Source: Blastococcus sp. CT_GayMR20 (GTDB lineage: Bacteria > Actinomycetota > Actinomycetes > Mycobacteriales > Geodermatophilaceae). From it: a stretch of DNA of 64,000 nucleotides. Below the pieces are notes generated by a model. It saw nothing but the letters and a program-made list of their open reading frames with translations. It had not been told where the DNA came from and did not search any database. Numbering within the stretch: the stretch's first letter is position 1; each line of letters begins with the position of its first letter. This document shows positions 25,641 to 38,078 of the stretch, piece after piece. The position numbers were made by a program, and so were the translations under genes. The stretch is from assembly GCF_004570345.1 (NCBI RefSeq), contig NZ_SPQM01000008.1, positions 1-64,000 of the forward strand, given 5' to 3'.

Positions 25641-25748
25641 CCGGGCTTGATCACCGGTCCGGTAACAGAGGTCGTGGCGCCCTTGCCACACCAGGCCCGG
25701 GACGGTTGTCTCCCAGGAAGACTTCCGGCGAGCCAGCGAGGGACACCG

Positions 25749-26633
25749 ATGGACTTCCTGCAACCGACGTCGTGGGCCGACGCCCTCGCCGTCCGTGCCG
25801 AGCGCCTCGACGCCGTCCCGATCGCCGGCGGCACCGACGTGATGGTCGACGTCAACTTCGACCGGAGCCGTCCGGGGGCGCTGCTCGACCTCGGCCGGGT
25901 GCCCGAGCTGCGGGAGTGGACCCCCGAGGACGGCTGGATCCGGCTCGGCGCGGGAGTGCCCTACTCGCGGATCATCGACGACCTCCGTGCGCAGCTGCCG
26001 GGCCTGGCCATGGCGTCGCGGACCGTGGGCTCCCCGCAGATCCGCATCCGCGGCACCGTCGGGGGGAACCTCGGCTCGGCGTCCCCGGCCGGCGACGCTC
26101 ACCCGCCGCTGCTGGCGGCCGGCGCGGTCGTCGAGGTGGCGTCGGCGGCGCGCGGCGCGCGGCGGATCCCCGCGGCGGACTTCTACCTCGGCGTGAAGCG
26201 CAACGCTCTCGAGCCGGACGAGCTGATCTCCGCCGTCCTGGTCCCGCCGGCGGCGGGGCCGCAGCAGTTCTGCAAGGTCGGCACCCGGAACGCCATGGTC
26301 ATCGCCGTCTCGGCGTTCGCGTGCGCGCTGCACCCCGACCGCAAGGGGGTCGGCACCGGCATCGGTTCGGCGGCCCCGACGCCGCGCCGTGCGGTGGACG
26401 CGGAGATCTTCCTCGCGGGAGAGCTCGAGGACGCCGGCCTGTGGGAGTCCCGCGGTCAGCTGCCCGAGGCGCTGGCCCGCGCCTTCGGGGAGCGGGTCGC
26501 CGAGGCGGCGTCCCCCATCGACGACGTCCGGGGGAGCGCGGCCTACCGCCGCCACTCGCTGTCGGTGATGGCGCGGCGGGCCGCCACCTGGGCATGGGCC
26601 GAATACCAGCGCGATCTGCGGAAGGCGGCCTGA
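25749..26633 (+). CDS. pucC: Xanthine dehydrogenase FAD subunit
   Basis: The 294-residue FAD-binding subunit of a molybdenum hydroxylase. Flavin motifs are PIAGGTDVMVD (about 24-34) and TVGSPQIRIRGTVGGNLGSASPAGDAHPPL. It is first in a tight three-gene operon, with 1 nt between its stop and the next ATG. It passes electrons from the Fe-S subunit to the final acceptor. The gene order FAD, Fe-S, Mo matches actinobacterial puc (xanthine dehydrogenase) operons. The start ATG was chosen at the conserved MDFLQPTSWADAL. Confidence 0.88.
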   Translation: MDFLQPTSWADALAVRAERLDAVPIAGGTDVMVDVNFDRSRPGALLDLGRVPELREWTPEDGWIRLGAGVPYSRIIDDLRAQLPGLAMASRTVGSPQIRIRGTVGGNLGSASPAGDAHPPLLAAGAVVEVASAARGARRIPAADFYLGVKRNALEPDELISAVLVPPAAGPQQFCKVGTRNAMVIAVSAFACALHPDRKGVGTGIGSAAPTPRRAVDAEIFLAGELEDAGLWESRGQLPEALARAFGERVAEAASPIDDVRGSAAYRRHSLSVMARRAATWAWAEYQRDLRKAA

Positions 26634-26634
26634 C

Positions 26635-27105
26635 ATGCGCATCACCACCACCGTCAACGGCACCGAGCACGAGGTGGACGACGTCTGGGCCGGTGAGAGC
26701 CTGCTCTACATGCTGCGCGAGCGCATGGGCCTGCCCGGCTCGAAGAACGCCTGCGAACAGGGCGAGTGCGGCTCCTGCACCGTCTACCTCGACGGCGAAC
26801 CGGTCTGCTCGTGCCTCGTCGCGGCGGGACAGGCCGCCGGGCGGCAGGTGATCACGGTCGAGGGTCTCGCCACCGACGACGGGCTCCATCCGGTGCAGGA
26901 GGCGTTCGTCGAGTGCGGGGCCGTGCAGTGCGGCTTCTGCACGCCGGGCCTGCTGGTCGCCGCCCACGACCTGCTGGCCCGGGTGCCGGACCCCTCCGAC
27001 CTGGAGATCCGCGAGGCGCTGGCCGGCAACCTCTGCCGGTGCACCGGGTACGAGAAGATCCTGGACGCGGTCCGGCTCGCCGCGGAGCGGCAGGCGCAGG
27101 CATGA
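26635..27105 (+). CDS. pucE: Xanthine dehydrogenase 2Fe-2S subunit
   Basis: The 156-residue protein binds two 2Fe-2S clusters: a plant-ferredoxin-type site CEQGECGSC...C in the N-terminal half, and a helical-domain site QCGFCTPG with NLCRCTGY in the C-terminal half. It ferries electrons from the molybdenum site to FAD. It starts 1 nt after pucC, and its stop overlaps the pucD ATG by 4 nt (ATGA), which shows tight coupling. Confidence 0.95.
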   Translation: MRITTTVNGTEHEVDDVWAGESLLYMLRERMGLPGSKNACEQGECGSCTVYLDGEPVCSCLVAAGQAAGRQVITVEGLATDDGLHPVQEAFVECGAVQCGFCTPGLLVAAHDLLARVPDPSDLEIREALAGNLCRCTGYEKILDAVRLAAERQAQA

Positions 27106-29402
27106 GCACCGACGCCGGCACGCGGACGACGACGACCACCACGACGCCCGGCCGCATCGGCGACAGCCCGCTCCGGCCCGACGGCACCCTCAAGGTCACC
27201 GGTGAGTTCGCCTACGCCAGCGACCTCTGGCACGACGACATGGTGTGGGGCGTGACTCTGCGCAGCCCGCACCCGCACGCGCGGATCCGGCGGATCGACA
27301 TCACCGAGGCGCTCACGGTGCCGGGCGTGACCGCGGTGCTCACAGCCGACGACGTCCCGGGAGAGAACGCCTTCGGCCTCGAGCACGCCGACCAGCCGGT
27401 TCTCGCCTCCGAGTTCGTGCGCTACGAGGGAGAGCCGGTCGCGCTGGTCGCGGCCGACCACCCGGAGACCGCCCGCCGGGCGGCCGCCCGCATCCGGGTC
27501 GAGTACGAGGTCCTGCCCGCGGTCACCGACCCGCGGCGGGCCATGGACGACGACGCCCCGGCGGTGCACCGTCCCGGCAACCTGGTGCGCCACCTGAAGC
27601 TGCGGCGGGGTGACGCCGAGGCGACCGCGCCGGTCGTGGTGTCGCTCGACTTCGAGGTCGGCATGCAGGACCAGGCATTCCTCGGCCCGGAGTCCGGGCT
27701 CGCCGTCCCGGCGGAGGACGGCGGGGTCGACCTGTACGTGGCGACGCAGTGGCTGCACGTCGACCAGAGGCAGATCTGCCTGGCGCTGGGCATGTCGAGC
27801 GACAAGGTGCGCCTGCACCTGGCCGGCGTCGGCGGCGCGTTCGGCGGTCGCGAGGACCTGTCCGTGCACGTGCACGCCTGCCTCCTGGCGCTGCGCACCA
27901 ACCGTCCGGTCAAGATGTCCTACAGCCGGGAGGAGTCCTTCTTCGGCCACGTGCACCGGCACCCGGCGACGCTGTCGTACGAGTTCGGCGCCCAGCGCGA
28001 CGGCACCCTGGTCTACGCCCGGGCTCGCGTCCTCCTCGACGGCGGCGCCTACGCCTCCTCGACCGCCGCGGTCGTCGGCAACGCGGGCACGCTCGGGCTG
28101 GGCCCCTACCGGATCCCCAACGTGTCGGTCGACGCCTACGGCGTCTTCACCAACAACCCGCCGTGCGGGGCCATGCGCGGGTTCGGCTGCGTGCAGGCGG
28201 CGTTCGCCCACGAGGCGCTGATGGACGAGCTCGCCGACGCCGTCGGGCTGGACCGGGTGGAGATCCGCCAGCTCAACGGCATGCGCGAGGGCGATCTCAA
28301 CATCACCGGCCAGGTCATCGACTCCGCCGCTCCGGTGGCCGAGCTGCTGCAGATCGTGCGGGACATGCCGCTGCCGCCCGAGCTCGGCGAGGACCCCGAC
28401 CTCCGCTCGCTGCCCGGTTCGGTGGGCAACGCCACCCACGGCGAGGGAGTCGTGCGTGGCGTCGGCTACGCGGTCACGTACAAGAACGTCGGCTTCTCCG
28501 AGGGGTTCGACGACTACTCGACCGCCCGGGTGCGGCTGGAGATGACCGGCGGCGAGGCCGTGGCCACGGTGCACACGGCGGCTGCCGAGGTCGGCCAGGG
28601 GCTGATCACCGTCGAGCAGCAGATCTGCCGGACCGAGCTCGGCGTCGAACGCGTCGTCGTCCATCCGAAGAACACCGCCGTCGGGTCCGGCGGCTCGACG
28701 TCGGCGTCCCGGCAGACCTACGTGACCGGTGGTGCGGTGCAGGCGGCCTGCGAGGCGGTGCGGACGGCGGTCCTCGAGCGGGCCGCCCTCGCGCTCGGCC
28801 GCCCGGCCGGCGACCTGCGGCTGGACGGCGAGAAGATCGTCGGCACCGCCGGCGACGTCCTCATCAGCCTCGGCGACGTGCTCGGTGAGGACGCCGTCGA
28901 GGAGACCGTCGAGTGGCGGCACCGCCCGACCCACGCCATCGACCCGGAGACCGGGCAGGGCGACGCGCACGTGCAGTTCGCGTTCTCCGCGCACCGGGCG
29001 GTCGTCGACGTGGACGTGGAGCTCGGGCTGGTGAAGGTCATCGCCCTCGACACCGCGCAGGACGTGGGCAAGGCGATCAACCCCGACGCCGTCCTGGGCC
29101 AGATCCACGGCGGGTCGGCGCAGGGGATGGGCCTGGCCCTGATGGAGGAGATCGTGGTGACCGACGGCCACGTGCGGAACCCGTCGTTCACCGACTACCT
29201 CATCCCGACGATCCTCGACATGCCGCCGATGAAGGTCGAGGTGCTCGAGTACGCCGACCCGCACGCGCCGTACGGCGTCCGTGGGGTGGGGGAGCCGCCG
29301 ACGATCTCCTCGGGGCCGGCCGTCGCAGCCGCCGTCCGCGCCGCTACCGGGAAGCCGCTGCGCCGGGTGCCGATCCGCCCGGAGCACATCACGGGCACCT
29401 GA
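27102..29402 (+). CDS. pucD: Xanthine dehydrogenase molybdopterin subunit
   Basis: The 766-residue catalytic subunit matches actinobacterial PucD in several long segments: LRPDGTLKVTGEFAYASD, QDQAFLGPESGLAVPAEDGG, GVGGAFGGREDLS, CGAMRGFG, EVGQG, and the active-site Glu731 in RGVGEPPT. It would oxidise hypoxanthine and xanthine to urate. The N-terminus carries a run of seven Thr. No XdhC-type cofactor insertion protein or PucR regulator is in the window, so maturation and control must come from elsewhere. A strong inverted repeat follows the stop. Confidence 0.9.
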   Translation: MSTDAGTRTTTTTTTPGRIGDSPLRPDGTLKVTGEFAYASDLWHDDMVWGVTLRSPHPHARIRRIDITEALTVPGVTAVLTADDVPGENAFGLEHADQPVLASEFVRYEGEPVALVAADHPETARRAAARIRVEYEVLPAVTDPRRAMDDDAPAVHRPGNLVRHLKLRRGDAEATAPVVVSLDFEVGMQDQAFLGPESGLAVPAEDGGVDLYVATQWLHVDQRQICLALGMSSDKVRLHLAGVGGAFGGREDLSVHVHACLLALRTNRPVKMSYSREESFFGHVHRHPATLSYEFGAQRDGTLVYARARVLLDGGAYASSTAAVVGNAGTLGLGPYRIPNVSVDAYGVFTNNPPCGAMRGFGCVQAAFAHEALMDELADAVGLDRVEIRQLNGMREGDLNITGQVIDSAAPVAELLQIVRDMPLPPELGEDPDLRSLPGSVGNATHGEGVVRGVGYAVTYKNVGFSEGFDDYSTARVRLEMTGGEAVATVHTAAAEVGQGLITVEQQICRTELGVERVVVHPKNTAVGSGGSTSASRQTYVTGGAVQAACEAVRTAVLERAALALGRPAGDLRLDGEKIVGTAGDVLISLGDVLGEDAVEETVEWRHRPTHAIDPETGQGDAHVQFAFSAHRAVVDVDVELGLVKVIALDTAQDVGKAINPDAVLGQIHGGSAQGMGLALMEEIVVTDGHVRNPSFTDYLIPTILDMPPMKVEVLEYADPHAPYGVRGVGEPPTISSGPAVAAAVRAATGKPLRRVPIRPEHITGT

Positions 29403-30338: not shown

Positions 30339-30692
30339 ATGAGCCCGACGGTGCTGGTCGTCGACGACCACGCATCCTTCCGTGCCGCGGCCTCTGCGCT
30401 GCTGGAGGCCGAGGGCTTCACGGTCGTCGGCGGGGCCGGTGACGGGGAGGAGGCGCTCGCCCAGGTCGGGATGCTGCGCCCCGACGTGGTGCTCCTCGAC
30501 GTCCAGCTCCCGGGGATCGACGGCTTCGAGGTCGCCCGTCGGCTGGCGGCCCTGGCCTTCCCCCCGGCGGTGCTGCTCATCTCCAGCCGGGCGGAGGCGG
30601 AGTACGGCGACCAGGTGGCCCGGTCCCCGGCGCGCGGCTTCCTCGACAAGTGGGCGCTGTCCGGCGCGGAGCTCGCCCGGCTGCTGCCGTGA
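30339..30692 (+). CDS. Single-domain response regulator (receiver only)
   Basis: The 117-residue protein is a receiver domain with no output domain. The acidic pair is in VLVVDDHASF, the phosphorylation Asp in VVLLDVQLPG, the switch Ser in LLISSRAE and the conserved Lys in GFLDKWAL, so it should accept phosphate. Its stop overlaps the kinase 1 GTG start (GTGA). It could be a phosphate sink, a relay, or act by protein binding. The dyad at 30289-30304 lies just upstream. Confidence 0.9.
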   Translation: MSPTVLVVDDHASFRAAASALLEAEGFTVVGGAGDGEEALAQVGMLRPDVVLLDVQLPGIDGFEVARRLAALAFPPAVLLISSRAEAEYGDQVARSPARGFLDKWALSGAELARLLP

Positions 30693-32252
30693 GGCGGCTC
30701 GAGGTCCTCGGCTGGTGCACCGCCATGGGAGCCGGCCTCGCCATCGACCTGGTCGTCTACGGGCCGGGGAACCCGGTCGGCTGGCTCCCTGACGTCGCGG
30801 TGGGGTGGGGCCTTCCTGGGCGGGGCCCTGCTGCTGCGCACGCGCGCCCCCGCGGAGCCGATGGGGGTGCTCATCGGCGGGGTGGGTCTCACCTGGTTCC
30901 TCGGCACGCTGGTACCGGCCCTGGTGTTCGTGCACCGGGGCGTCCTGGTCCACGTGCTGTTCGCCTTTCCGACAGGGCGGCTGTCCGGGATCGGGCGGGT
31001 GGCAGTCCCGGTCGCGTACGGAGTGGCCGTCAGCCAGGGGACCTGGGGCAACGAATGGACGACGATCGGGCTCACCGTGGCGCTGCTGGCGGTTGTCGCG
31101 GTCCACCGAGGGAGGGCCGTCGGGCCCGTCCGCCGGGCTCGCCACCAGGCCACCGTGGCCGCAGCCGCCCTCGGGTTGCTGTTGATCGCTTCCGCGCTGG
31201 CGCGGCTGGCGTTCCCGCTGGGCGACGCCGACGGGGTCACCCTCCTCGGCTACATGGTGGCGCTGCTCGGGGTGGCCGTCGCCGTCACATCGGGCGCTGA
31301 CCGGGCGCGCTGGCGCACGGCTCCGGTCACCGATCTGGTGGTGCAGCTGGGCGGCGAACGATCGGGTGCCGTGCGCGACGCGCTCGCCCGGGCGCTGGGT
31401 GACCCCAGCCTCGAGGTCGGGTACCGGGACGGCGGAGGTTTCGTCGACGCGGCCGGGCGACCGGTGGTGGTGCCCGCCGGCGACGCCGGACGGGCGTCCA
31501 CCTTGGTGCAGCAACTCGGCGAGCCGGTCGCGGTGCTGGTGCACGACCCCGTGGTCCTCGCCGATGCCCAGTTGCTCGACGCGGTCGCCGCCGCCGCGCG
31601 ACTGGTGGCGCGCAACGACCAGCTGCGAGCCGACGTGGAGGCGCGGGTGGCCGACCTCGAGGATTCCCGGCGGCGGCTGGTCGCCGCTGCGGACGGGGAG
31701 CGCGGTCGACTCGCGGATCGGCTCGCCGAGGGCGCGGAGCACAAGCTGGCCGCCCTGGCCGAAGGTCTGGCAGGGGTGACGTCGGACGACGACGGCGTCG
31801 ACCGGGTGCGGGCGGAGCTCGATCGCACCCGCGCCGACCTGCGCCGCTTGGCCGCCGGGTTGGACCCGGTCGGTGCCGGGGGTATCGAGACGGCGCTGCG
31901 CGACCTGGCCGCACGCTGCCCGGTCCCGGTGGACGTGGACGTGGACGCGATGGCGCGACCGCTCGCGGCGCAGGTGGCCCAGGCGATGTGGTTCGTCGGT
32001 GCCGAGGCCGTGGCGAACGCGGTGAAGCACGCCGGTGCCACACGGATCGGCATCGTGCTGGCGGCGGACGACGACGCGGTCGTGCTGACCGTCACCGACG
32101 ACGGCGCCGGCGGTGCGGACCCGGGGACCGGTTCCGGACTCCGTGCCCTCGTCGATCGTGTCGACGCGCTGGGCGGATGGCTCGGGGTGCAGAGCCGCCG
32201 GGGCGGGGGGACGACGGTGCTGGCCGCCGTCCCCGCGTTTCCCGTCAGCTGA
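30689..32252 (+). CDS. Sensor kinase 1: ATPase domain kept, phospho-acceptor His replaced; one-base frameshift near the start
   Basis: The frame-corrected protein is about 520 residues: membrane helices, a cytoplasmic domain ending VAVLVHDPVVL, a NarX-type dimerisation region and an HATPase_c domain. The H-box reads ERGRLADRLAEGAEHKL where relatives have ERRRLERDLHDGAQQRL, so the acceptor His is Ala (codon 31725-31727). The ATP domain is intact: N-box EAVANAVKHAGA (Asn codon 32016-32018), DDGAGG, GSGLRALVDRV and a GGGTT end. The GTG at 30689 (GTGA overlap with the receiver) reads VRRLEVLGWCTAMGAG and then leaves frame at a GGGG run (30807-30810). Removing one G restores GWAFLGGALLLRTRAPAEP and joins the main frame. 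Otherwise translation would begin at ATG 30861 and lack the first helices. Confidence 0.85.
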
Positions 32253-34065
32253 TCCGCCGCCACGGCAGGCCCCAGTAGGTCTCGTTGAAGAGGATGGACG
32301 GCTGGATGGCGGTGAACCTGATGCCGTCGGCCGTCGGCTCCCACCTGCCCATGAAGACGAGCTCCTCGACGGGGCACAGAGGCGGACCGGTGATGAAGGC
32401 GATCCGCGACCCTCGCACCTCGTACGTGCCGCCGCAGTCGGTCGGGTCGGCCCGGCCGTCCACGTGGTGCACCCAGGTGCCGTCCTCCACGGTGAAGGTC
32501 GACAGCCCTCCGTTGTAGAAGGCGTCCCTGGGGTCGACGCCCGCGGCGATCAGCTGGTCCTCGGTCATCTCCCAGCGGTACACACCCTCCGGGAGCGGCC
32601 GCGCCGCCTGGATCTCCTCGATCTTGCGCCACGGCACACTGTGCAGCAGTTCGCGGACCAGTTGGTCGGCCGGATCGTTCGTGACGCGACTCCGGACATC
32701 GGTCCAGCTGATCTCCGCTCCGTCGAGAGCCGGACGGGCCTCCCACCTTCCGCCGCACTGCGGCTCCTCGACGAACTGCAGCACGCCGTCGTCGAGACTG
32801 TAGGTGCCCTCGCACACCTGTTCTCCACGTCGGGACCGCCACTCCCACCGGGACGACCCGCCGTCCAGGGTGACCGTCTGGACGCCGAGCTCCTCGGCTG
32901 CCTCCGTCTCCGACAGGCCGGCGTCCAGGCCGTCCTGGTAGGTGACCTCGTAACGCCACACCCCGTCGTACCTGCCGAGGTCATCCGGCGAGCTGGCCAC
33001 CGGGGTCGCGTCCGCGCAGGTGGTGCCCGCAGAGGGCGGTTCCGAGGACGCGACGATCTCGGTGATCCGGGCCAGGAGCGGGCCGGTCGACTCGTCGGCG
33101 GCCAGGCGATCCCGCACCGGCTGGGTGGCCGCCGCCATCGCGGCCTGCTGCTCCGCCGTGGCGACCACCACCTCGAGGCCTTCGGCGCACACCGCAGCCA
33201 GCTCGTCGGCATCGGAGGGACGGGTCTCGATGCTGTGTTCCAGCGTGTCGTCGGCCGCCGTGAGGAGCAGCTCCCGCTGCTCGTCGGTCAGCGCCTCGAG
33301 CGCCTCGGTGTTCGCGACCAGCACGTTGGCCTTGGCGTAGGGGGTGAGGTTGCCCGTCAGCACGCCGCGCCACGGCAGGGACGACACGTAGGCCGCGCTC
33401 GTCTCCGCGCCACCCAGGCGTCCCTCCCGGAACAGCGTCTGCATCTCCTCGCCGCCGATGTCCAGTGGCGTCGCGCCGAGAGCCTGCAGGGTCTCCCACG
33501 ACAGGTCCGACAACGGCGTCCGGATGCCGACACCGGCGAAGTCGGCGGGTTCCAGCAGCGGCTCCGCGAAGCTCGCCGGGTGACGTAGGCCCTCGGGGAA
33601 CAGGCCGAGCCCGCTCACTCCCAACTCGTCCAGGCCGGACAACATCTCCTCGGCGACCGGATCGCTCACGACGGCGTCCAGCGCCGAGTCGCTGGTCACC
33701 AGGAACGGCGCCTGCAGAGCCTGCAACGTCGTGACGCCGAGGGTGTCCCACGACCGGGCCGGGATGAACCCGAGGTCGGAGGTCCCCTCGATGACCTGCT
33801 GAGCGGCGACCTGGTCCCAGGACGCTCCCCCGTCGCCGACGCCCCATTCGACGTCGACCCGCACCCGGCCCTCGGAGCCCGACGACACCTGTTCGGCGAA
33901 GTACTCGACGTCCCGGCTGCCAGGACGGCCGGGTTGCTCGGGCGAGGCGAGGCTCAGCGTGAGCACGCCCCCCGAGCCACCGCCCTTGTCCACCTCCCCG
34001 GCGGAGCAGCCGGCCACCACCACGCCGACCAGGAGAACCGACGCGGACGTCCTCGGGACCTTCAT
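32245..34065 (-). CDS. DctP-type (TRAP) solute-binding lipoprotein with duplicated C-terminal domain
   Basis: The 606-residue lipoprotein begins with a signal peptide and lipobox VVAGC (Cys20). Residues about 30-345 form a TRAP-transporter DctP-like fold: AEQVSSGSEGRVRVDVEW, QVIEGTSDLGFIPARSWD, GGEEMQTLFREGRLGGAE and ALEALTDEQRELLLTAADDT. Residues 365-482 and 492-606 are two copies of one domain, each with a CxGTY...C pair (Cys418/437 and Cys544/564) and ending PWR(K/R)I. No DctQ or DctM permease gene is near, so this is probably a receptor, not a transporter part. The start ATG 34065 has AAGGG upstream. It overlaps the end of kinase 1 by 8 nt tail-to-tail and is divergent from kinase 2. Confidence 0.85.
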   Translation of the reverse strand: MKVPRTSASVLLVGVVVAGCSAGEVDKGGGSGGVLTLSLASPEQPGRPGSRDVEYFAEQVSSGSEGRVRVDVEWGVGDGGASWDQVAAQQVIEGTSDLGFIPARSWDTLGVTTLQALQAPFLVTSDSALDAVVSDPVAEEMLSGLDELGVSGLGLFPEGLRHPASFAEPLLEPADFAGVGIRTPLSDLSWETLQALGATPLDIGGEEMQTLFREGRLGGAETSAAYVSSLPWRGVLTGNLTPYAKANVLVANTEALEALTDEQRELLLTAADDTLEHSIETRPSDADELAAVCAEGLEVVVATAEQQAAMAAATQPVRDRLAADESTGPLLARITEIVASSEPPSAGTTCADATPVASSPDDLGRYDGVWRYEVTYQDGLDAGLSETEAAEELGVQTVTLDGGSSRWEWRSRRGEQVCEGTYSLDDGVLQFVEEPQCGGRWEARPALDGAEISWTDVRSRVTNDPADQLVRELLHSVPWRKIEEIQAARPLPEGVYRWEMTEDQLIAAGVDPRDAFYNGGLSTFTVEDGTWVHHVDGRADPTDCGGTYEVRGSRIAFITGPPLCPVEELVFMGRWEPTADGIRFTAIQPSILFNETYWGLPWRRIS

Positions 34066-34208
34066 GGGCGTGCCCTTCTGGGAGTTGGAGCTTCCGAGGC
34101 TCGTCGCCCACGCCCGTGCTTCCATCGGAGCCACCCGGGGATCCGGGGATCCGCGACCTGTGGCTGACCACAGTCGAAACGGCACGGTTCGGTGCCACAC
34201 TCGCCAGC
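34066..34208. promoter_or_regulatory. Divergent promoter region with two dyads between the DctP-like gene and kinase 2
   Basis: Two inverted repeats lie here. CTGTGG-CTGA-CCACAG (34158-34173) is a perfect 6-4-6 dyad. GGCAC-n6-GTGCC (34181-34196) is a 5-6-5 dyad centred 23 bp further on, about two helical turns. The first differs at only 3 of 16 positions from the site before the lone receiver, and it ends 35 nt before the kinase 2 ATG, against 34 nt for the receiver. Confidence 0.55.
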
Positions 34209-35969
34209 ATGGCAGCGGCGGCACCGGTTGCGGGGGGCTCGCGACCTCTGCCCGACGTGGCCGGGGTCCTCGCCCTGGCCGTCGCGCTCGGGGCGGGCGT
34301 CCTGGCGTCCACCGGTCTCCCGTCGAGCGAATCCCTCGTCACGAGCTATGCCATGGCGTCCGCGACCGGCCGCACGCTGGGTCTGCTCGCCGGTGGTTGC
34401 CTGCTGACCGCAGGGGCGCTCGCCGTCTGGTTCGGCCGGTCATCCCCCGTGGGCGTGCTGCTCGTCGCTTCCGGGGTCCTCTGGTTCGCACCGGACTGGG
34501 CCGGTTGGGAGGGCGGTCCGGGAGTGGTGCGCGGGTTGGCCACGCTGGTCACCCCGCTGCTGCCGGTGGCGCTGCTCGGCCTGCTGGCAACGCTGTCCGG
34601 CGCCCGCCGCCGCGGACCGGTAGCGGCTGCGGCCGTGGTCGGCGCGCTGAGCGTCGGGTTCGCGGTCGTCGACGACCCGTTCCTGGATCCGGTGTGCTGG
34701 CCGACCTGCTCGGACAACACGCTCCTGATCTCCAGCCAGCCAGCCCTCGCGGATCTGCTGGGCGTGGCCTTGTCGCTGGCCTCGATCGGGGTCGCCGGTC
34801 TGGCCGGGTTCGGTGCAGGGAGAGGTCTGCTCGCAGCGTCGTCGGTGGCCCGTCGCTGGAACGGTGCGCTCCTCGGTGCGCTCGTGGCGGTCGCAGCCGT
34901 CGAGGTGGCGTACGGCCTCGCCGCGCTCCTCGGGACGGAGACTGCCGATGACCCTCTCTTCGTGAGGATCCACGTCGCGCGGGCGGTCGCCTGGTCGTTG
35001 CTGGCGCTCGCGGCGGCGTGGACGACGCATCGGCACCTCGCCCGCCGCCGATCGCTGGCCGGCCTGGCCGCCGAGCTGGAGACGACCGGCGGCCCGCTCC
35101 CGCTGGCGAGCACGCTGCGGTCGGTCACCGGCGATCTCGACCTGGACGTGCGGTACCCGGTCGGCCACGACGAGCGGCAGGTCGGTGCCGACGGCCGGAC
35201 CGCGCCGACGCAGCCGGGACCGGGGCGGACAGCGACGCCCCTCCGACGGGGGGAGCGGACCGTCGCCGTCCTCGTGCACGACCCGGTCGTGCTGCCGGTC
35301 GACGCGCTCGACGCGGTGCTCGGCCCGGCCGCGCGGCTGGCGCTGGACAACGAGCGGCTCTCGGCGGAACGGCTGGCCCGGGCCTACGACGTCCAGGAGT
35401 CCCAGCGCCGCATCGTGCGTACCGGCGACGAGGCGCGCCGGAGGCTGGAGCGCGACCTCCACGACGGCGCCCAGCAGAGTCTGCTGGCGCTGTCCTACCT
35501 GCTGCGACTGACGCGCACCACGGCCGAGCGGGCGGGGGAGTGGAGGGCGGTCGCCGAGCTGGACCGCGGGCTGTCGCTGGCGCAGGGAGCGCTGGACGAC
35601 CTGCGCCGGCTCGCGCACGGCATCCACCCGGCGGTGCTCTCCCAGTCCGGCCTGGCCGTCGCCCTGCGTGCGCTCGCGGAGGAGACCCTGGTGCCGCTCG
35701 AGCTCGAGAAAGTTCCGGACGAGAGGTTCGACGCGAGCATCGAGCTGGCCGCCTGGGTCGTGGTGCGCGACGCCGCCGACCGCGCAGGACGGGACCCGTC
35801 GGCCGCGCTCGTGGTCCGCGCGGGCAGGGACGGCGACCGGCTGGTCGTCGAGGTGGACGGCGCCGGTGACCGGCTGCCGACGGTGACCGCCGACCGGGTC
35901 GGCGCGCTCGGGGGGCACCTCCTGGAAACGGCGACCGGGTTACGGGTGGAGCTGCCGTGCGCGTCGTGA
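34209..35969 (+). CDS. Sensor kinase 2: acceptor His kept, ATP-binding boxes lost
   Basis: The 586-residue protein has about seven or eight membrane helices (10-300), a cytoplasmic domain ending VAVLVHDPVVL (the same phrase as in kinase 1), then an intact H-box ERDLHDGAQQ with His418. The ATPase domain is ruined: the N-box position reads RDAADRAGRDPSA with no Asn, the DxGxG motif reads VDGAG (first Asp is Val) and the GxGxGL loop is deleted. The C-terminus still ends GALGGHLLETATGLRVELPC. The protein should accept phosphate but should not bind ATP. ATG 34209 was preferred to 34116. Its stop overlaps the response regulator start by 13 nt. Confidence 0.88.
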   Translation: MAAAAPVAGGSRPLPDVAGVLALAVALGAGVLASTGLPSSESLVTSYAMASATGRTLGLLAGGCLLTAGALAVWFGRSSPVGVLLVASGVLWFAPDWAGWEGGPGVVRGLATLVTPLLPVALLGLLATLSGARRRGPVAAAAVVGALSVGFAVVDDPFLDPVCWPTCSDNTLLISSQPALADLLGVALSLASIGVAGLAGFGAGRGLLAASSVARRWNGALLGALVAVAAVEVAYGLAALLGTETADDPLFVRIHVARAVAWSLLALAAAWTTHRHLARRRSLAGLAAELETTGGPLPLASTLRSVTGDLDLDVRYPVGHDERQVGADGRTAPTQPGPGRTATPLRRGERTVAVLVHDPVVLPVDALDAVLGPAARLALDNERLSAERLARAYDVQESQRRIVRTGDEARRRLERDLHDGAQQSLLALSYLLRLTRTTAERAGEWRAVAELDRGLSLAQGALDDLRRLAHGIHPAVLSQSGLAVALRALAEETLVPLELEKVPDERFDASIELAAWVVVRDAADRAGRDPSAALVVRAGRDGDRLVVEVDGAGDRLPTVTADRVGALGGHLLETATGLRVELPCAS

Positions 35970-36601
35970 TCGCCGACGACACGATGCTCACCCGGCAGGG
36001 CATCGCCGGTGTCCTCGCCGACTGCGGGATCGACGTGGTGGCGGCCGTTGGCGACCCGGAGTCGCTGATCCGGGAGGTCGACCGGACGAGGCCGGACGCC
36101 GCCGTCGTCGACATCAGGATGCCCCCGATGCACACCGACGAGGGCATCCGGGCGACCGCGCGGCTGCGGGGAGCCCACCCCGCCCTCGGGGTGCTTCTCC
36201 TGTCGGCCTACGTCGAACCCGAGTACGCCGTCCGGCTCCTCGAGGACCACCCCGGCGGCATCGGGTACCTCCTCAAGGACCGGGTGTCGGACGGCGTGCT
36301 GCTGGTCGACGCGCTGCGCCGGTTGTGTGACGGGGAGACCGTGGTCGACCCCACGATCGTGTCGCGGGTGTTCGAGCGGCGGCGGCGGGTCGATCCGCTC
36401 GCCCAGCTCTCCGACCGCGAACGCGAGGTGCTCGGGCTGCTCACCGAAGGTCTCTCCAATCGCGCCCTCGCCGCCCGGCTGTACGTGACCGAGCGGACCG
36501 TGGAAGCGCACATCACCTCGATCTTCGGCAAGCTCGGCCTGGTCGACGGGCCGGGGGTGCACCGTCGCGTGCTCGCCGTCCTCACCTACCTGCGGGCCTG
36601 A
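35957..36601 (+). CDS. NarL/FixJ-type response regulator
   Basis: The 214-residue protein has a receiver domain (acidic pair in VVIADDTM, phosphorylation Asp in AVVDIRMPP, Lys in YLLKDRV) and a C-terminal LuxR helix-turn-helix (about 150-205, LSDREREVLGLLTEGLSNRALAARL followed by VTERTVEAHI). It starts at GTG 35957 inside the end of kinase 2, so the two are coupled. It probably binds the dyads before both arms of the locus (inference). All phosphorylation residues are present. Confidence 0.93.
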   Translation: MRVVIADDTMLTRQGIAGVLADCGIDVVAAVGDPESLIREVDRTRPDAAVVDIRMPPMHTDEGIRATARLRGAHPALGVLLLSAYVEPEYAVRLLEDHPGGIGYLLKDRVSDGVLLVDALRRLCDGETVVDPTIVSRVFERRRRVDPLAQLSDREREVLGLLTEGLSNRALAARLYVTERTVEAHITSIFGKLGLVDGPGVHRRVLAVLTYLRA

Positions 36602-36703: not shown

Positions 36704-37123
36704 ATGGACTGGAAGCTGGAAGTCGTCATCGTCCCGGTGACGGACGTGGACCGCGCCAAGGAGTTCTACGGCGAGAAGCTGGGTTTCCCGGTGGATGTGG
36801 ATCACCGGGCCGATGAACACTTCCGCGTCGTGCAGGTCACCCCGCCCGGGTCGGCCTGCTCGATCGTCTTCGGCAAGGGCATGGGCAGCGACGTGAAGCC
36901 CGGGTCGCTCAAGGGCAACCAGCTGGTGGTCAGCGACATCGAGGCGGCGCACTCCCACCTGGAGGCCAACGGCATCGCAAACGGCGGCATCGTCCACTTC
37001 GAGGCCGGTCGCATGGCGCCCGGCCCGGACCCGGCGCGCCAGAAGTTCGGTTCGTTCATCTACTTCGACGACCCCGACGGCAACACGTGGGCGGTGCAGG
37101 AGGGTGAGCGGGATGGCAGCTGA
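36704..37123 (+). CDS. VOC (glyoxalase/bleomycin-resistance-like) protein
   Basis: A 139-residue two-module VOC protein: MDWKLEVVIVPVTDVDRAKEFYGEKLGF at the start and FGSFIYFDDPDGNTWAVQE at the end. His and Glu metal-ligand candidates are present, but the first-strand His is replaced, so metal binding may be altered. The stop overlaps the start of the sigma-factor gene by 11 nt, so the pair is co-translated. VOC genes upstream of such sigma factors are common in actinobacteria. Confidence 0.85.
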   Translation: MDWKLEVVIVPVTDVDRAKEFYGEKLGFPVDVDHRADEHFRVVQVTPPGSACSIVFGKGMGSDVKPGSLKGNQLVVSDIEAAHSHLEANGIANGGIVHFEAGRMAPGPDPARQKFGSFIYFDDPDGNTWAVQEGERDGS

Positions 37124-38078
37124 GGCGGCGACGCTGTCCGAGGCCGACCTCGATGCCGCCGCCACGAGCCACCGGCGCGAGCTGCACGTGCACTGCTACC
37201 GGATGCTCGCCTCCTTCGACGACGCCGAGGACGCCGTCCAGGAGACGTTCCTGCGGGCGTGGCGGAGCCGGGCGACGTTCGACGGGCTGCACCTGCGGGC
37301 CTGGCTGTACCGCATCGCCACGAACGTCTGCATCGATCTCATCCAGGCGCGCAAGCGGCACGTGCCGGAGCTGACCTCCTACGCCGAGATCGGGTGGCTG
37401 ACGCCCTATCCCGACCGGCTGCTCGACCAGATCCCGTCCACCGACGACCAGCCGGACGCCGTGGCGGTGGCGAGGGAGACGATCGAGCTGGCGTTCCTGG
37501 CGGCGCTGCAGGTGTTGCCGCCGCGCCAGCGGGCGGCCCTCCTCGCGCGGGAGGTGCTCGGCCTTCCGGCGGCCGAGACGGCGGCGCTCCTGGACACCAG
37601 CGTCGCCGCGGCGAACAGCGCCCTGCAGCGGGCGCGGGCCACGATGCAGGAGCACCTGCCCTCGCACCGTTCCGACTGGACGGCCGCTGCGCCCAACGCG
37701 GCCGAGCGGGAACTGCTCGACCGGTTCATCGACGCCCACCAGCGCTGCGACGCGGCCGCCGCCGTCTCGATCGCGGCGACCGACCTGCGGGTGACCATGC
37801 CGCCGGCGCCGATGGTCTTCGACGGGCTGGCGGGGTTCCAGCCACTGCTGGAACGGGCATTCGGCCCGGGCCGCGACGGCGACTGGCGGCTCCTGCCCAC
37901 GTCGGCGAACCGGATGCCGGCAGCGGCCAGCTACCTGCGCCGGCCCGGGGACACCGAGTTCCGTGCCTTCAAGCTCGACGTGCTGCGCGTGGAGGGCTCG
38001 GAGATCGCCGAGATCACGACCTTCGGCTACTCGATGTTCGAGCTCTTCGGCCTCCCGTCGGTCCTGCCGCGCTCCTGA
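37113..38078 (+). CDS. ECF-type RNA polymerase sigma factor with C-terminal SnoaL-like domain (SigG-like)
   Basis: The 321-residue protein has sigma region 2 (HCYRMLASFDDAEDAVQETFLRAW, about 30-55), region 4 (LPPRQRAALLAREVLGLPAAETA, about 135-160) and a SnoaL/NTF2-like domain (about 200-315, DRFIDAHQRCDAAAAVSI, ending SMFELFGLPSVLP). Such sigma factors usually lack an anti-sigma factor and use the NTF2-like domain for control. The ATG at 37113 has AGGAGGG about 8 nt upstream. A GTG at 37104 is the alternative. Confidence 0.9.
   Translation: MAAEAATLSEADLDAAATSHRRELHVHCYRMLASFDDAEDAVQETFLRAWRSRATFDGLHLRAWLYRIATNVCIDLIQARKRHVPELTSYAEIGWLTPYPDRLLDQIPSTDDQPDAVAVARETIELAFLAALQVLPPRQRAALLAREVLGLPAAETAALLDTSVAAANSALQRARATMQEHLPSHRSDWTAAAPNAAERELLDRFIDAHQRCDAAAAVSIAATDLRVTMPPAPMVFDGLAGFQPLLERAFGPGRDGDWRLLPTSANRMPAAASYLRRPGDTEFRAFKLDVLRVEGSEIAEITTFGYSMFELFGLPSVLPRS

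Follow-up and report, generated by a model that had tools for sequence, protein, structure and literature searches.

The usual picture of a histidine kinase is a homodimer whose chains are each capable of both jobs, that is, ATP catalysis and carrying the phosphorylated histidine. In the stretch of DNA analyzed here, which is 64,000 nucleotides long (positions 1 to 64,000 of contig NZ_SPQM01000008.1 of Blastococcus sp. CT_GayMR20, hereafter the window), the motifs for these jobs are found on the products of two separate sensor kinase genes, which we call kinase 1 (K1) and kinase 2 (K2). An earlier reading of this DNA, hereafter the original prediction, had proposed that the two are paralogues with complementary defects that act in trans; it had overlooked a gene for a DctP-type lipoprotein that sits between both kinase genes, on the opposite strand. 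The resulting five-gene module has the following features, in which DHp stands for the dimerization and histidine phosphotransfer region and CA for the catalytic and ATP-binding domain.

30339-30692, plus strand: receiver-only response regulator (REC, 117 amino acids) with its acceptor Asp; Pfam Response_reg, E = 1.6e-22
30689-30860, plus strand: upstream part of kinase 1, out of frame, with the first membrane segment, as read from the translations of both frames
30861-32252, plus strand: kinase 1 (K1), the ATP-only half, with membrane helices, a GAF-like beta domain, DHp-like helices without the His and an intact CA
31725-31727, plus strand: Ala codon at the phospho-acceptor position of K1
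32016-32018, plus strand: N-box Asn of K1, an Asn in 120/120 listed proteins
32097-32141, plus strand: nucleotide-binding motifs of K1, DDGAGG (from 32097) and GSGL
32245-34065, minus strand: DctP-type TRAP solute-binding lipoprotein, 606 amino acids, lipobox VVAGC, a candidate sensor; Pfam DctP, NCBIfam TRAP_S1
34209-35969, plus strand: kinase 2 (K2), the His-only half, with membrane helices, a GAF-like beta domain, a HisKA_3 DHp and a degenerate CA
35460-35477, plus strand: His418-Asp419-xxx-Gln423 of K2, phospho-acceptor and HisKA_3 phosphatase motif (His418 codon 35460-35462), kept in 119/120 listed proteins
35697-35957, plus strand: degenerate CA of K2, without N-box Asn, DxGxG Asp and G2 loop, with a conserved DRVGALGG-like stretch and a terminal PC
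35957-36601, plus strand: NarL/LuxR-type response regulator, its start overlapping the K2 end; Pfam Response_reg and GerE

The REC stop overlaps the upstream GTG of K1 by 4 bases, just as the regulator start overlaps the end of K2, and each kinase gene is therefore coupled to a gene encoding a receiver domain.

The complementary defects described in the original prediction are all readable in the sequence. The CA domain of K1 is intact, with its N-box Asn, DDGAGG and GSGL, and is matched by Pfam HATPase_c, while the phospho-accepting His of its H-box is replaced by Ala and HisKA_3 finds no match. Conversely, K2 has an intact H-box with His418 and matches HisKA_3, while Asp stands at the position of the N-box Asn (35778-35780), the first Asp of DxGxG is replaced by Val (35853-35855), the G2 loop is missing and no HATPase model in Pfam matches. 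The Asp and Gln that follow the His of K2 conform to the DxxxQ phosphatase motif of HisKA_3 kinases. By motifs and Pfam, ATP catalysis and phospho-His lie on separate proteins in the window, HisKA_3 and HATPase being combined in neither K1 nor K2 but present in the pair jointly. The shared phrase VAVLVHDPVVL, which had been taken as a mark of duplication, does occur in both proteins. The extent originally assigned to K1, 30689-32252, contains the right motifs but cannot be a single reading frame, since it spans 1564 bases and its start frame differs from its end frame. The break lies inside the first membrane segment, at roughly 30795-30815, and the readable frame starts at 30861, upstream of the acceptor region and of all ATP motifs. 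P0122, a relative that is 88% identical, reads through this stretch; the break in the window stems either from an error in sequencing or assembly or from a genuine disruption of the gene in this strain.

The same halves are kept across both families. Protein searches gave 756 matches for K1 and 802 for K2, and the counts that follow refer to the best 120 of each, the window's own proteins included. Among the K1 proteins, the N-box Asn, the DxGxG Asp and both G2 glycines are each present in 120/120, while the acceptor column drifts, with His in 52, Arg in 38, Ala in 10, Asp in 10 and others in the remainder; in the first 19 of the list it holds Ala 10 times, Asp 7 times, and Val and Leu once each. 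His and Arg interchange between otherwise almost identical K1 boxes, and parsimony on a quick K1 tree counts 20 changes between His and another residue. Among the K2 proteins, H-D-xxx-Q is found in 119/120, the exception, P0025, apparently being frame-shifted at this place; 0/120 show the N-box pattern, and the aligned N-box column holds Asn in 2/120. The Asp and Gln of the phosphatase motif occur in only 4/120 K1 proteins, and the full H-D-xxx-Q, His included, in 2/120. Pfam run on the working alignments lists HisKA_3 for 49/49 K2 and no HATPase family, and HATPase_c for 45/45 K1 with HisKA_3 in 6/45. Constraint is thus not relaxed over the whole protein, as would be expected of a pair of pseudogenes; complementary motifs are kept in each set of 120. 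An H-box pattern for K1 was dropped as evidence, since it missed the His in the K1 of locus L002 and in the intact kinase of L129, and the acceptor state was taken from alignment columns in its place.

The original prediction had suggested looking for the same paired losses in related genomes. Besides recurring in the listed proteins, they recur as pairs: K1 and K2 are found together at 18 loci (the window, L001, L002, L004, L005, L057, L107, L108, L157, L158, L160, L161, L168, L169, L170, L171, L173 and L174). Relatives with only one of the two genes were likewise sought, and a K2 by itself was found at a single locus, L162, which we treated as fragmentary and counted as the sole exception (a short, 9.4-kb contig on which the frames of K2 and the regulator overlap). 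Gene order and strand vary among the split loci, and the linkage of K1 to K2 has therefore survived rearrangement. A receiver-only homologue is found at 14/18 split loci, with its acceptor Asp in 14/14, and a NarL-type regulator homologue at 16/18, with its acceptor Asp in 16/16, both at the cut-off used; at L107, a partial regulator lies at the contig end. Carriers include a Micromonospora, a Kribbella, Streptomyces olivochromogenes, Humibacillus xanthopallidus and a metagenome genome of the Solirubrobacterales. As lower bounds, a K2-type kinase occurs in at least 3/296 genomes of the class sample and at least 2/200 of the order sample of G001, at least 3/299 of the class sample of G002 (places given as loci only) and at least 5/196 of the order sample of G004, samples that overlap in that G001 is in two of them. 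The matches listed in the scan of genome contigs are mostly intact relatives.

DctP is present at 14/16 split loci, these being the window and the loci reached through the kinases, as against 0/53 loci with only an intact kinase (Fisher 7.8e-13, which is descriptive, since the split kinases are one clade). The DctP model behind this count was built from the hits themselves, and the 53 intact loci were taken with flanks of any length, many having about 8 kb on each side and others less. L171, L173 and L174, which hold a diverged split pair, were left out of this count because they were found through DctP. The two split loci without DctP, L108 and L162, are short contigs, and the genome of L108 has DctP and a regulator on another contig (L176). 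Six intact relatives that we looked at closely (L159 and L163-L167) lie in REC-kinase-regulator operons, from which it follows that the receiver and the regulator probably predate the split, and that DctP came with it.

Phylogeny and pairwise distances indicate that the two halves share an old origin and have been inherited together. The 128 distinct family kinases collected from the fetched loci and the window score as 98 intact, 16 K2-like and 14 K1-like. By pattern, 16/16 K2-like kinases have a His box but lack ATP motifs, and 13/14 K1-like kinases have ATP motifs without a His box, the remaining one being a frame-broken piece from L001 with the His. By alignment column, the K1 of L002 also has the His, and its sister (G437) has Gln. 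A tree of 99 rows, built by a quick method with the acceptor columns and CA region left out, unrooted and with support from the Shimodaira-Hasegawa-like approximate likelihood ratio test only, places K1 on one side of a branch (support 100) and groups K2 (96) and the intact kinases (94). In the 99-row alignment, the acceptor His is present in 27/27 K2, 47/47 intact kinases and 5/25 K1; at the 18 paired loci, it is present in all 18 K2 and in 2 K1. This fits a single old duplication followed by reciprocal loss, much as the original prediction of duplicates each keeping one half had it. Moreover, K1 and K2 have correlated pairwise distances across 13 loci (Mantel r = 0.85, a value reached by 0/100,000 permutations and to which shared whole-genome ancestry contributes). 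With paired losses that are conserved, linked and coevolving, the locus bears out what was foreseen for an obligate trans-acting pair.

Predicted structural models have a mean predicted local distance difference test score of 83 for each kinase. The CA of the K1 model matches the CA domain of VraS with a template modelling score (TM) of 0.81 by target and a root mean square deviation (rmsd) of 2.1, and long DHp-like helices lie beside the membrane part of the model. Foldseek ranks DesK fourth for K1 (E = 1.5e-9); for K2, its best matches are DesK structures, although weak (best E = 9.3e-4). The DHp and CA folds are thus DesK-like, the overall TM being low because the hinge and the membrane parts differ. 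Superposed on the CA of VraS, the remnant CA of K2 gives a TM of 0.60 and an rmsd of 4.1, and K2, judging by its model, seems to have preserved a CA-like fold that lacks the nucleotide site. The conserved DRVGALGG-like stretch and terminal PC suggest that this remnant still has a job. A sequence search of the PDB with a K2 profile gave 0 matches at E 0.01.

As for the lipoprotein, Pfam DctP (E = 4.3e-25) and NCBIfam TRAP_S1 both match the window protein above their cut-offs. The Cys at its lipobox position is aligned in at least 13/14 DctP proteins, and a pattern search finds the lipobox in 11/14. Its C-terminal extension (window 32245-33000, minus strand) seemingly consists of two repeated domains, with no Pfam match. 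A DctP is encoded in 13, and a DctM in 6, of the 14 genomes with the module or its K2; no DctM was found in the other 8, an absence that is soft because completeness is not given and some of these are draft metagenome genomes (DctQ was not searched). Seven genomes (G002, G129, G105, G437, G695, G613 and G792) have a single DctP and no DctM that we could find, and in each this sole DctP lies in the module, or, in G105, beside the regulator on another contig. The eight flanking genes of the window that were given to Pfam include no permease. From its gene context, DctP is probably a sensor component. A candidate docking site for it is a Cys-rich loop (CWxxC) between membrane helices of K2 (residues about 161-177, window 34689-34739); a loose pattern finds such an extracellular Cys loop in 21/27 K2, 0/25 K1 and 3/47 intact kinases.

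Since the same pair recurs, usually with DctP, in distantly related actinobacteria, K1 and K2 probably work only as one shared kinase. As the His and Gln belong to K2 and the ATP site to K1, the simplest arrangement is that K1 acts on K2, and that K2 alone is both phosphodonor and phosphatase. We consider it very probable that the module encodes a split histidine kinase that senses a ligand, with K1 phosphorylating the His of K2 in trans and K2 both adding phosphate to the NarL-type regulator and removing it. It would have arisen from an ancestral REC-kinase-NarL-type regulator operon when the kinase was duplicated, one copy (K1) keeping ATP binding but no longer needing a phospho-His, the second (K2) retaining the His and the phosphatase motif but losing ATP binding. 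Within the membrane, contact between the DHp helices would bring the two together, most likely into a heterodimer, and the K1 CA domain would phosphorylate His418 of K2 in trans. K2 would then donate this phosphoryl group to the regulator and, at times when K1 is not phosphorylating it, take the group off again. The DctP lipoprotein would bind a small extracellular solute and signal to the kinase pair instead of feeding a transporter, and the receiver-only protein would be a second phosphate target, perhaps a sink.

The form of the complex is where this scheme is most open to another answer. The halves could each be homodimers that interact transiently, as CheA3 and CheA4 do, with no stable heterodimer, which would make a switch with free K2 as the phosphatase. 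The near-confinement of H-D-xxx-Q to K2 would suit such an arrangement, and modelling of CheA3/CheA4 predicts ultrasensitivity from it (PMC3591291). We nevertheless think it somewhat unlikely, as the long DHp-like helices of the K1 model would suit a shared four-helix bundle and, in DesK, the CA of one protomer touches the DHp helix of the other in the phosphotransfer complex (PMC5231405). The same study states that in HisKA_3 kinases the Gln after the His positions a water for dephosphorylation (PMC5231405).

A second alternative concerns DctP, which by name is a subunit of a TRAP transporter and could be just that, regulated by the two-component system and unrelated to sensing. A DctM somewhere in 6/14 genomes is in keeping with this idea, which is made improbable by the eight genomes, some perhaps incomplete drafts, in which none was found, by the seven whose single DctP is located in the module and by the absence of DctP from all 53 intact-kinase loci. 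If DctP does sense, one can go further and imagine a DctP-gated two-gene kinase family in which the loaded DctP joins K1 to K2 and turns K2 from phosphatase to phosphodonor, in which a phosphatase in K2 alone provides a built-in ultrasensitive or bistable switch, and in which the breaking of kinase symmetry went along with a single asymmetric DctP partner; we put this forward, as a whole, only tentatively.

It is also conceivable that K2 is phosphorylated by an intact family kinase encoded elsewhere, K1 being an allosteric or ATP-sensing partner. An intact family kinase is present in a module-bearing genome, for example G801 (L156), and in evolved Corynebacterium glutamicum with a CA-truncated ChrS, the output is reported to go through cross-phosphorylation of the regulator ChrA by the paralogous kinase HrrS (PMC9491836). 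With K1 near K2 at 18 loci and coevolving with it over the 13 tested, and with ATP motifs that are invariant among the listed K1 proteins and that a mere scaffold would not need, we regard this as very improbable. Hardly credible at all is that K1 and K2 are decaying duplicates, pseudogenes or dead paralogues losing different motifs by chance: gene duplicates do often decay, and K1 is frame-broken in the window and at L001, but random decay would not preserve one half per copy reciprocally, and chance or decay as the origin of the defects was rejected given the motif conservation with the same halves kept in each list, the tree grouping, the mirrored distances and the conserved neighbours.

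Several observations weigh against the main scheme of a split kinase with DctP as its sensor. The His persists at the K1 acceptor in 52/120 listed relatives and at 2/18 paired loci (L001 and L002), and K1 may therefore autophosphorylate in some members. The K1 of the Micromonospora locus L001 (6210-7977) is frame-broken like that of the window, near the acceptor region and with its His still present, and the module may be dead in both, or the assemblies wrong. L162 (L162/L126, genome G535) has K2 without K1 or DctP on its 9.4-kb contig, and L172 (G801 contig 11) has a DctP belonging to this family but no family kinase within 16 kb. REC is missing from 4/18 split loci. As the split kinases form one clade, their linkages to DctP are not independent events. 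Six of the 14 genomes have a DctM elsewhere, and the Arg of the TRAP ligand site is not conserved in the DctP set, so that no common DctP ligand is implied.

Two groups of neighbors in the window deserve mention. Upstream, at 25647-29402, lies a molybdenum hydroxylase operon (FAD, 2Fe-2S and molybdopterin subunits, of CO/xanthine dehydrogenase type), which is a possible regulatory target of the module. Just downstream of the regulator, 36704-38078 encodes a glyoxalase-family protein and a sigma-70-family factor with a SnoaL-like domain. Elsewhere, an Acidimicrobiales locus (L023, 5889-12073) has two adjacent large open reading frames of 981 and 1141 codons with response regulators nearby, the first, by pattern, with a His box and no ATP motifs and the second with ATP motifs and no His box; judging from these patterns, they may be another split pair.

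Among known systems, the intact REC-kinase-NarL operons of the six relatives, of DesK/NarX type, have similar DHp and CA folds and share the REC and NarL-type neighbors, but in them a single protein carries the two halves, and no DctP lies adjacent (0/53). The HK1-HK2-TcrA system of Mycobacterium tuberculosis (Rv0600c-Rv0601c-Rv0602c) reportedly has the ATP-binding part and the phospho-His on separate proteins within a three-protein two-component system; it is a divided kinase of another class than K1/K2, and is not known to include a DctP. Caulobacter DivL is likewise said to be a histidine pseudokinase that influences signalling through a partner kinase. In such pseudokinase cases, including that of ChrS, one partner is defective, whereas here the defects are reciprocal and conserved. 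The ChrS of evolved C. glutamicum resembles our pair in that a non-catalytic kinase homologue acts via a partner kinase (PMC9491836). HK1-HK2-TcrA is listed in a table citing Shrivastava and Das 2007 and mentioned in passing (PMC8965865, PMC9274095). CheA3 and CheA4 of Rhodobacter sphaeroides do not autophosphorylate alone but do so when mixed, one lacking the phospho-acceptor part and the other the catalytic part, and the acceptor protein is also a phosphatase, a kinase/phosphatase arrangement that in models allows ultrasensitivity (PMC3591291). These are, however, chemotaxis proteins that lack whole domains, whereas K1 and K2 are membrane kinases of HisKA_3 type that keep their domain layout, have lost complementary active-site residues and come with DctP and a NarL-type regulator. 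In Synechocystis, Hik36 and Hik43, acting with Rre6, also form one histidine kinase jointly, but they belong to the chemotaxis-like tax3/pilG cluster, their genes are far apart, their HPt and CA are on different proteins and the available portion of the account mentions no solute-binding protein (PMC7656254). Solute-binding proteins have been reported to stimulate transmembrane receptors, acting outside the membrane as the ligand sensor of the receptor (PMC9602780); here, in contrast, a TRAP-type DctP is tied to a split kinase, with no DctM found in 8/14 genomes. In the open-licence literature, we found CheA-type split kinases and pseudokinases but no prior description of the K1/K2/DctP family. 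The original remark that obligate trans-acting pairs are unusual is to be amended in that split kinases have precedents. CheA-type split kinases being known, the apparent novelty lies in a conserved HisKA_3-type membrane kinase whose halves parted through reciprocal loss of residues and which is linked to a TRAP-type binding protein.

Duplication and reciprocal loss seem, then, to have made an obligate two-gene kinase that is present in distant actinobacteria. Such a family offers a natural test of models, as set out in the CheA3/CheA4 work, in which a switch-like response can result when kinase and phosphatase are separated (PMC3591291). It also points to sensing as the likely function of an orphan TRAP binding protein, and the annotation "signal transduction histidine kinase" carried by each gene fully describes neither K1 nor K2.

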